From Alphaproteobacteria bacterium (lineage in GTDB: Bacteria; Pseudomonadota; Alphaproteobacteria; Sphingomonadales; Sphingomonadaceae): a DNA stretch of 64,000 nt. Shown piece after piece: positions 42,848 to 46,489 of the stretch. The notes beneath the pieces are model-generated. The model searched no databases. It saw nothing but the letters and a program-made list of their open reading frames with translations, and was not told where the DNA came from. A program made the translations under genes and the position numbers. Within the stretch, counting starts at the first letter, position 1; each line of letters starts with the position of its first letter. The stretch covers positions 1 through 64,000 of the forward strand of contig JAFANP010000004.1 in NCBI GenBank assembly GCA_019232625.1, written 5' to 3'.

Positions 42848-42939
42848 CGTTCGCCCTTTAGGCGCGACGCCGCCCGCGGCAAAGGGCCTGTAGGTGCCGC
42901 CGCGGAGCCGTGCTAGTCTTGCGCCGGGAGGGACCGCCG

Positions 42940-44442
42940 ATGGTCCGGATTGCAAGGGGCGCGCCGCGGGCGTGGGAGAATTATCACGAGACGGTGAAGC
43001 AGACCGTCTCGCAGCTCCAGTTCATCGATCTCGACCCGGCGGAGGCCGCGGCGGCGCGGCTTGCAGGGACGGCGCGCCTCGTCGGCGCCGAGCTGGCGCG
43101 AGGCCGCGACATCCGGCCGGTCGGCGGTGCCTGGTCGTTCAGCCAGCTTCACAAGACGGGCGGGGACGTCCTGACCACGCGCGAGACCGCGGCGGTCGGA
43201 CGCCTCGATCCGGCGACGGTGGTCGGCGGGCTCGATTCGCGCCGCCTCCGCCTCGTCTCCGGCGGGACGATCATCAAGCAGCTCAACGTCGCGCTGGAGG
43301 CGGAACGTCTCTCGATTCGCACCTCGGGGGCGAGCAACGGCCAGAGCGTCGCGGGAGCGATGGCGACCGGCACCCACGGCTCGGCACCGAGCGAGGGCGG
43401 GTTCCAGGAGCATGTGCGCGGGATCCATCTCGTCACCGCCCCGGGCAGGTCGATCTGGCTGGAACCGGCCGCGCCGGGCGGGCTGGATCCGGCCTTTGCG
43501 CGCACGTTCGCGGACGAGGTCGTGCGCAGCGACGCCCTGTTCCAGGCCGCGGTCGTCCACCTGGGCGGCCTCGGCTACGTCAGCGGAGTCCTCTTCGAAG
43601 CGGTGCCGCGCTTCCTGGTGGGCATCGTCCAGCGCAAGGCGGTGCTGAAGCGGGACGCGCTCGAGGAGCTCGCCCGCGGCGATTTCCAGGCGTTCGCGGC
43701 CCGCTTCGGCTTCGCCGACCCTTATTTCGTCCAGGCCATCCTCAACCCGTTCCGCCCCGACACGCGGCCCGCTCTGGTGAGGTTGCTGGTGCCGATCCCG
43801 GAGGAGGCGCTGTTCGAGGAGCTTCCCTTCCTCGGATCGCTGTTCAACTTCGACCCGCTCAATGCGCTGAGCGACGTCATCGCCCTGCTTCCGCCGGGCG
43901 CCCGCGGCGAGATCATCGCCATCCTCATGCGCAAGCTCTATCCGGAGCTGCCCAAGGACGGAGGACCGCCGGTCGGCGTCACCTGGGGCACGACGACGCC
44001 GGACCACCACAAGGTGGGGGACCTGTTCAGCACCGGGATCGCGGTCGAGCGCGAGCGCCTCCCGGAAGCGCTCGACGCCATGCTTCCCGCCTTCCGCCAG
44101 CATGACGGCGGCGACGCGGTCTGCACCTTGCGCTTCGTGCGCAAGTCGCCGGGGACGCTGGCGGCGACCCGGTGGGAGCATAATGTCGTGATCGATTTCG
44201 ACGGCCTGCGCTCGAAGGCGAGCCGGCGCGCCTACGAGCGGGTGCTGGCCGCCGTCGACGCCGCCGGCATCCCCTCGCGGCAGCATTGGGGCAAGCTCAG
44301 CCTGCTCGACGCGGCGCGCGTGCGCCGCGACCATGGCGACGCGGCGGTGGATGCCTGGCGGGCGGCGCGCGCGCAGCTGCTCTCGCCGGCCATGGCCTCG
44401 ACCTTCCGAAGCCAGGCGCTGGTCGACTGGGGCCTCGCCTGA
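42940..44442 (+). CDS. FAD-binding (VAO/PCMH-type) oxidoreductase
   Basis: The protein has 500 residues from ATG 42940, which has GGGAGGG at a good distance; GTG 42910 is a weaker option. The FAD domain shows IRPVGGAWSFSQL, SGGTIIKQLNVALE, GASNGQSVAGAMATGTHGSA (pyrophosphate loop) and AAVVHLGGLGYVSGVLFEAV. The C-terminal half is a substrate domain with WGTTTPDHHKVGDLFS, VCTLRFVRKSPG and HWGKL, resembling sugar-lactone or alditol oxidases in the last motif. No bicovalent-flavin signature is obvious. The substrate is unknown. Confidence 0.82.
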   Translation: MVRIARGAPRAWENYHETVKQTVSQLQFIDLDPAEAAAARLAGTARLVGAELARGRDIRPVGGAWSFSQLHKTGGDVLTTRETAAVGRLDPATVVGGLDSRRLRLVSGGTIIKQLNVALEAERLSIRTSGASNGQSVAGAMATGTHGSAPSEGGFQEHVRGIHLVTAPGRSIWLEPAAPGGLDPAFARTFADEVVRSDALFQAAVVHLGGLGYVSGVLFEAVPRFLVGIVQRKAVLKRDALEELARGDFQAFAARFGFADPYFVQAILNPFRPDTRPALVRLLVPIPEEALFEELPFLGSLFNFDPLNALSDVIALLPPGARGEIIAILMRKLYPELPKDGGPPVGVTWGTTTPDHHKVGDLFSTGIAVERERLPEALDAMLPAFRQHDGGDAVCTLRFVRKSPGTLAATRWEHNVVIDFDGLRSKASRRAYERVLAAVDAAGIPSRQHWGKLSLLDAARVRRDHGDAAVDAWRAARAQLLSPAMASTFRSQALVDWGLA

Positions 44443-44527: not shown

Positions 44528-46489
44528 ATGCACGCCTATCGCACCCACAATTGCGGCCAGCTCCGCGCCTCGGACGTCGGCGAGACGGTGCGGCTTTCCG
44601 GATGGATCCATCGCAAGCGCGACCATGGCGGCGTTCTGTTCGTCGACCTTCGCGACCATCACGGCCTTACCCAGGTCGTCGCGAAGGCCAATTCGGAAGC
44701 GCTGGGGATCCTCGAGCATCTTCGCGCCGAGAGCGTGGTCACCGTCACCGGCGAGGTCGTCGCCCGCGGGCCGGAGGCGGCCAACCCCAACCTCGCCACC
44801 GGGGAGATCGAGCTGGTGGCGGACACCGTCACCGTCCAGTCCGCCGCCGAGGAGCTGCCGCTGCCGGTGGCCGGCGAAGCCGACTATCCCGAGGACATCC
44901 GCCTGCGCTACCGCTTCCTCGACCTGAGGCGCGAGCGGATTCACGCCAACATCGTGCTGCGCTCCAACGTCATCGCCTCGATCCGGCGGCGGATGGTGGA
45001 GGCGGGGTTCATCGAGTTCCAGACGCCGATCCTCACCGCCTCGAGCCCGGAGGGCGCCCGCGACTATCTGGTGCCGAGCCGCGTCCACCCGGGCAAGTTC
45101 TACGCCCTCCCGCAGGCGCCGCAGATGTTCAAGCAGCTGATCATGGTGGCGGGCTTCGACCGCTATTTCCAGATCGCCCCCTGCTTCCGCGACGAGGACG
45201 CCCGCGCCGACCGCAGCCCGGGCGAATTCTACCAGCTCGACTTCGAGATGAGCTACGTGACGCAGGAGGACGTGTTCCAGGCGATCGAGCCGGTGCTGGC
45301 CGGCGTGTTCGAGGAGTTCGCCGAGGGCAAGGACGTGACCCCGGCCGGCCGCTTCCCGCGCATTCCCTATCGCGAGGCGATGTTGCGCTACGGCTCGGAC
45401 AAGCCCGACCTCAGGAATCCGATCCTCATCAGCGATGTCACTGAAGTGTTTCGCGGGAGCGGATTTGGTCTTTTCGCTAGGATGATCGACTCGGGGAGTG
45501 TCGTGCGCGCGATCCCGGCACCAGGAGCGGGAAACCGGTCCCGTAAGTTCTTCGATGAGATGAATGAGTGGGCCCGGGCCGAGGGGTACCAGGGTCTAGG
45601 TTATGCCACTTTCGTGAAGGGGGAGTGGCACACAAGGGGTCTGGAATTCGTCGAAAGTACTTGGGTTAATGGAAACCCGGCTCTCCGAGTTCGTGATGAC
45701 TGCCCAGAGAGCTATCGTGAACTCCTCCAGCGCTTGGTTGACGGAGAAACAGTTCCCGAATTTCAGATGTTGAGTGGCCCAATCGCCAAGCACCTATCGT
45801 CAGCTCAGCAGTTCCGACTCATTCGTGAGCTGAAGCTCGAGGAGGCAGATGGTGTATTCTTCGCGGCGGGGAAGGAAGGGCAGGCGGCCAAGCTCGCCGG
45901 CGCGGCGCGCACCCGGGTGGGCGAGCAGCTCGGCCTGATCGCCGAGGATCGCTTCGAATTCTGCTGGATCGTCGATTTTCCGATGTTCGAATATGACGAG
46001 GAGGCGAAGAAGGTCGACTTCTCCCACAACCCCTTCTCGATGCCGCAGGGCGAGCTCGAGGCGCTGGAGACCAAGGATCCGCTCGACATCCTCGCCTACC
46101 AGTACGACATCGTCTGCAACGGCGTTGAGCTTTCGTCCGGCGCGATCCGCAACCACCGGCCGGACATCATGTACAAGGCCTTCGGAATCGCCGGCTATTC
46201 GAAGGAGGATGTCGACACCAACTTCTCCGGCATGATCAACGCCTTCAAATATGGAGCACCGCCGCACGGCGGGTCGGCGCCCGGCATCGACCGGATCGTC
46301 ATGCTTCTGGCGGGCGAGCCAAACATCCGCGAGGTGGTGCTCTTCCCGATGAACCAGAAGGCGGAGGACCTGATGATGGGCGCGCCGAGCGAGGTGACGG
46401 CGAAGCAGCTGAGGGAGCTCAACATCCGCCTGGTCGAGCCCGCCGGCGCGGCGAAGAAGGATCCCGCCAAGGCGGTGGCGCCGGAATGA
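44528..46489 (+). CDS. aspS: Aspartyl-tRNA synthetase with an enlarged, compositionally foreign GAD domain
   Basis: The 653-residue enzyme charges tRNA-Asp. Residues 1-105 are the OB anticodon domain ([20 protein letters not shown]). Motif 2 includes [19 protein letters not shown], and motif 3 is [12 protein letters not shown]. Bacterial AspRS usually has about 590-600 residues. Here residues 303-443, which match the GAD insert, are encoded by a segment with different codon use (53% G+C over 45601-45780, against 75% in a nearby line). It carries about 50 extra residues between KGEWHTRG and SGPIAKHL. The flanks read straight into normal sequence ([20 protein letters not shown]), so the frame is intact. 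The enzyme is probably active; the segment looks recombined in from another lineage. Confidence 0.95.

Follow-up and report, generated by a model that had tools for sequence, protein, structure and literature searches.

The aspartyl-tRNA synthetase gene (aspS) in the 64,000-nucleotide stretch of an Alphaproteobacteria genome (family Sphingomonadaceae) analysed here, referred to below as the window, carries an internal tract of foreign codon usage that coincides with an enlarged GAD domain. The best explanation, and a probable one, is that the domain was replaced by recombination with unsampled donors, and that this occurred in several genera. The features concerned are as follows.

44528..46489, + strand: aspS, bacterial-type aspartyl-tRNA synthetase (AspRS), 653 aa (matches to NCBIfam NF001750 / TIGR00459)
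45392..45433, + strand: 5' border, residues 289-302, conserved, with host-like codons (alignment, GC3 scan)
45434..45856, + strand: GAD-coding tract with foreign codon usage, GC3 0.58, residues 303-443, probably replaced (change points, codon comparison, Pfam GAD)
45608..45772, + strand: enlarged loop, residues 361-415, about 48 net extra residues (alignments, AlphaFold2 model)
45857..45913, + strand: 3' border, residues 444-462, conserved, with host-like codons (alignment, GC3 scan)

The aspS gene and its enlarged GAD domain

The aspS product scores above the cut-offs of both NCBIfam equivalogs for bacterial-type AspRS (NF001750, 816 bits, cut-off 443; TIGR00459, 611 bits, cut-off 374). It is the sole AspRS match in this genome, and a second aspS copy was therefore dropped as an explanation. 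The tract on its own matches Pfam GAD (PF02938) at 45.3 bits (gathering cut-off 23.4), and the tracts of four other enlarged enzymes, described below, likewise exceed this cut-off. The protein is in these respects like any bacterial-type AspRS with a GAD insertion domain, but it departs from the usual form in the length of the domain, 145 aligned residues compared with a median of 97 in a set of 136 AspRS, and in an extra helix-hairpin-helix in one loop, which when searched alone has no Pfam match. The 48 additional residues, close to the 50 or so estimated in an earlier reading of the window made from the DNA alone (the sequence-only reading), sit between GLGYA and SGPIAKHL. The set of 136 was obtained after 26 loci were dropped (fragments or unreadable) and 16 set aside (overlapping or context-only), with identical proteins counted once. 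In the AlphaFold2 model, the loop is predicted to form a helix (366-372), a beta hairpin (375-380/383-388) and a second helix (394-404), at block pLDDT values of about 70-85; overall domain placement in the model is poor (rmsd about 23 Å to AspRS crystal structures), and the GAD part alone was used.

The same loop is also longer than usual in L163 and L188, and less so in L191 and L193, so that enlarged length by itself is unremarkable. L163 (genome G435) has a repetitive in-frame insert (VSGSGRDSDVVSGSGRDS-like), which is unlike the aspS loop of this genome. A scan of viral sequences with the whole AspRS gave 14 loci, 12 of them alignable, and apart from L185, L188, L191 and L193 these look ordinary. 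In L188, on a viral-labelled IMG/VR contig, the GAD loop enlarged in the present gene is lengthened by about 27 residues; L191 and L193 have smaller extra loops. L185, also on a viral-labelled IMG/VR contig, carries a different long insert further downstream in the GAD domain, and its GC3 is lowered over a broad stretch.

A tract of foreign codons with sharp borders

Third-position G+C content (GC3) was scanned for change points without knowledge of the borders proposed in the sequence-only reading. The best change points in aspS enclose codons 303-443 (45434-45856), which agrees closely with the segment claimed earlier (45432..45857), and the base counts made then by hand are exact (95 of 180 G+C over 45601-45780, and 45 of 60 over 45301-45360). 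Within these codons GC3 is 0.58, compared with 0.91 outside, and the log-likelihood gain of the change points is 38.8, whereas 300 codon permutations gave at most 11.3. The reading frame is intact and both borders lie within conserved sequence (the 5' one with KPDLRNP), as had also been proposed and is borne out by the alignment and GC3 scans. Nucleotide identity to congeners shifts no more than about 8 codons from either border. The composition changes abruptly and in one frame, as would be looked for in a foreign tract. An overlapping gene was sought in 45381-45900, where each of the other five frames is broken by 3 to 11 stops and stays open for no more than 71 codons; a hidden gene was dropped as a cause because of these stops.

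As a control, ORFs with 200 or more codons were taken from 1.12 Mb (31%) of this genome. When native flanks were required (GC3 of at least 0.82 over at least 50 codons on each side), 494 of 685 ORFs could be scanned, and within this 31% of the genome the aspS tract was the strongest internal dip, the runner-up gaining 15.2. Without the flank filter, 19 of 695 ORFs outscore aspS; in most of these the dip begins at the N-terminus and resembles an over-called start. Among the 19 is an RHS-repeat ORF (L235:16081-17598), the C-terminal part of which (about codons 272-461) has a GC3 of 0.50 compared with 0.91 for the remainder. Elsewhere in this genome, genes with a ValRS domain (L258:216-3074), an IleRS-like domain (L262:12923-15835) and an RNB (RNase) domain (L229:3464-6007) contain in-frame low-GC3 inserts of 30-31 codons that resemble spread repeat elements.

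Codon identity was scored against 20 congeners, only at residues where the strain and the congener share the amino acid. It is 295/1056 (0.28) in the tract and 5277/7760 (0.68) in the flanks, so that codons differ at the same residue, whereas normal congener pairs (n=190) have a mean identity of 0.68 in tract and flanks alike. The GC3 of the tract is 0.58 at residues conserved among congeners and 0.55 at the remaining ones. Selection on the protein sequence alone would not yield codon change at unchanged residues, and the mismatch therefore argues that the DNA was replaced and that the protein was not merely diversified.

Carriers among relatives

The family sample comprised 653 distinct genomes (397, with 15 more of the genus and 241 more of the large genus g91), of which 639 gave some aspS match, part of them fragments. 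Carriers were judged by alignment splitting and E-values, partly without the sequence, a procedure that misses same-length swaps beyond the 136 genes read. By this measure, five of the 653 genomes have an enlarged GAD domain: this genome (G000), G096 (Glacieibacterium frigidum, Sphingomonadales), G153, G086 and G287. From their sampling, the genera of the carriers appear to hold 26, 2, 3, 1 and 6 genomes, each including a single carrier. The presence of the same insert in close relatives, which would have told against the sequence-only reading, was not seen: 25 of the 26 genomes of the genus matched, and all 24 others of these (24/24) have an ordinary GAD.

Four of the five enlarged genes show a GC3 dip at nearly the same borders, with tract minus flank values of -0.37 (L031), -0.32 (L032), -0.32 (L001, the gene in the window) and -0.29 (L033), compared with -0.14 to +0.11 (sd 0.041) for the other 131 of the 136 AspRS. 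Change points were found independently for each of the four, and in the numbering of the present protein they fall at 303-443 (this gene), 303-459, 297-440 and 301-467. The fifth, L036 (genome G287, which is 76% complete and has its aspS at a contig end), is enlarged yet lacks a dip (0.78 in the tract, 0.81 in the flanks). All four dips are close to GC3 0.5, which is odd if the donors differed and counts against that view. L119, L115, L006 and L011 also rank among the highest for dips; these are ORFs of 873-1105 aa with an over-extended N-terminus.

In Escherichia coli, no swap of the GAD domain was found: out of 5426 genomes, 5375 have a match to the aspS segment that encodes the GAD, each with at least 80% coverage and 90% identity. 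In another family of the class, L171 (genome G580, 69% complete) has a GAD of normal length with a sharp GC3 dip (0.37 compared with 0.68; tract minus flanks -0.30), the best segment being codons 360-401, and it may possibly be a same-length swap. The genome G325 contains two different AspRS genes, one of which (L071) lies on a very long branch of the flank tree, and contamination of 6% may account for the pair.

Phylogeny of tract and flanks

Trees were quick reconstructions without bootstrap, and the columns of the insert were mostly left out of the tract tree. The free tract tree groups L001 with L031 and L032 (98), and L033 with L036 (97), the tree tool warning that L033 and L036 are long branches and possibly joined falsely. 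The flank tree groups L031 with L036 (100), L032 with L033 (93), and L001 with eight neighbours of its own genus (85). The flanks reject both tract groupings (p 0.0002 for L001, L031 and L032; p 0.006 for L033 and L036). In the other direction, the tract fails to reject L031 with L036 (p 0.64, the likelihood being even higher when this group is held), L032 with L033 (p 0.43), L001 with its eight flank neighbours (p 0.083) or L033 within its family (p 0.84). A further test of the tract, against L001 with the whole genus (p 0.0004), was set aside as void, because leaving L001 out of the genus still leads to rejection (p 0.0019). The tract is too short and too diverged to reject the host tree, so the conflict between the two trees is no more than suggestive, and how many events took place is uncertain. 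The earlier proposal of domain replacement by homologous recombination is supported by the codons at unchanged residues, the sharp borders and the normal congeners; the free tract tree differs from the flank tree, but the tract does not reject the flank groupings.

The tracts of different carriers have codon identities of 0.22 to 0.37. Between flank sisters, identity is lower in the tract than in the flanks (L031/L036, 0.33 and 0.63; L032/L033, 0.42 and 0.64), which suggests that different DNA came into each. L001, L031 and L032 resemble one another in their extra modules, whose pairwise scores are reached by 0, 1 and 2 of 5000 shuffles, and the tract identity within a type (L001, L031 and L032 forming one, L033 and L036 the other) is only 39-46%.

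Donor searches and origin of the tract

A donor lineage with the same sequence was sought in plasmid, phage, viral, GTDB, class, phylum and order sequences, and none was found. Plasmids gave 14 records, the best with 39.7% identity over 294 bases and of ordinary length, and phages a single record, a Microcystis phage aspS with 36% identity over 41% of the query. Viral contigs and GTDB contigs searched with the tract gave no donor, and a three-row alignment of type A returned from the GTDB contigs a single locus, the gene of Glacieibacterium frigidum (G096) already described; all three of these searches used short exact peptide patterns, which miss distant donors. Among 385 genomes of the class only this genome and two partial matches were returned, and 299 of the phylum gave this genome again with a single partial match. 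The type B tract, used on 147 genomes of the order, matches 138 of them, as GAD domains do, and the best match reaches 63% across the first 67 residues. The titles and abstract openings searched in the literature contained nothing on GAD replacement.

Mosaic genes arise by the transfer of gene fragments. The present aspS resembles them in its sharp composition borders in one frame and its native flanks. Unlike them, it belongs to a set in which near-identical borders recur at one domain in four genera, with diverged incoming sequence each time; the searches above gave no donor, and the tree conflict is of the suggestive kind already noted. On the preferred reading, the native aspS would have lost its GAD-coding middle to homologous recombination, with the conserved stretches that flank it as anchors, the incoming GAD being diverged, longer and derived from an unsampled donor with a GC3 near 0.5. 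Similar replacements would have taken place in other genera of the family.

The two types in the free tract tree cut across the flank tree, and each flank sister pair holds both types, one per member, which is what would be seen if a few GAD alleles predated the split of the genera and have since circulated by recombination without any outside donor. This old polymorphism is unlikely, as carriers make up just 5 of the 653 family genomes sampled, the tract has kept its low GC3 without adapting to host composition, the identity within types is low, and the two types themselves are not firmly resolved. Slightly less likely again is diversification in place, with very fast evolution of the host's own GAD and a drift of its codons towards a mutational equilibrium at a GC3 near 0.5. 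The empty donor searches, the GC3 shared by the four dips, the long tract branches, the failure of the tract tree to reject host groupings and the fact that four of the five carriers are two sister pairs on the flanks all speak for it. Against it are the low codon identity at unchanged residues, where GC3 is equally low, and the extra module common to three carriers on separate flank branches. The host assembly consists of 66 contigs with 3.89% contamination, which might raise the question of a chimera or contaminant; this is hardly credible given the frame kept within native flanks and the recurrence of the pattern in three further assemblies, each with 2 to 7 contigs. Replacement by recombination accordingly remains the preferred reading.

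Function and possible selection

The AspRS insertion domain contributes to tRNA positioning in the active site (available text of PMC4237437), and the modelled hairpin and helix would alter that surface. None of eight genomes has a match to TIGR00457 (AsnRS) above the cut-off, and on the strength of these profile searches the AspRS with its swapped GAD presumably also charges tRNA-Asn, serving GatCAB. The aspS product probably still works as the only AspRS of the cell. This genome and the normal congeners G003 and G015 have identical tRNA-Asp, as do G153 and G078; across the nine genomes compared the acceptor stem does not vary, and the differences in G016 and G163 lie elsewhere in the molecule. 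The swap therefore does not follow an altered tRNA-Asp, which was dropped as a driver.

The sequence-only reading had offered, as a speculation, escape from an antibiotic of the microcin C type. AspRS is the known target of microcin C, which when processed acts as an aspartyl-adenylate inhibitor (available parts of PMC4237437 and PMC10926693). In the available part of PMC10926693 a single natural aspS change is tied to microcin C resistance, Gly544Asp of K. pneumoniae, which lies outside the GAD domain. In the alignment, the conserved catalytic stretches sit in the native flanks, so that the adenylate site is unchanged, and the proposal is left unsupported and very improbable. The catalytic motifs belong to these unchanged flanks.

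Target-modified synthetases that resist natural inhibitors exist. The present case is like them in having an altered synthetase within an otherwise ordinary genome, and unlike them in that aspS is single-copy, the change is outside the catalytic motifs and no inhibitor is known. The GAD domain is not known to be a target of attack, and little is known of its role beyond tRNA positioning. That the switch is seen in three related genera as well, with borders that nearly coincide, is a hint of repeated selection on this domain, and recurrence there might conceivably reflect selection on the GAD surface by a partner or inhibitor. More specifically, the insertion domain could be the docking site of an antagonist (phage protein, bacteriocin, toxin or natural product) from which recurrent replacement by foreign GAD domains gives escape, but this is doubtful. 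If replacement is correct, an essential synthetase encoded by a single gene copy has had one internal domain exchanged on more than one occasion, with borders that nearly coincide, while the catalytic core and tRNA-Asp stayed as before; selection on the GAD surface would then be indicated, with five natural enzymes named in which to seek its cause. Even without selection, the five would be natural chimeras for probing GAD function.

Gene order around aspS is broadly common to relatives in the nine neighbourhoods compared, some neighbouring genes being common to sister pairs only. No gene in these nine is present beside aspS in all carriers and missing from normal genomes, and an adjacent gene cluster was dropped as an explanation for that reason. 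Directly upstream of aspS is an ORF with a FAD-binding domain (42910-44442), which is absent from the eight other neighbourhoods.
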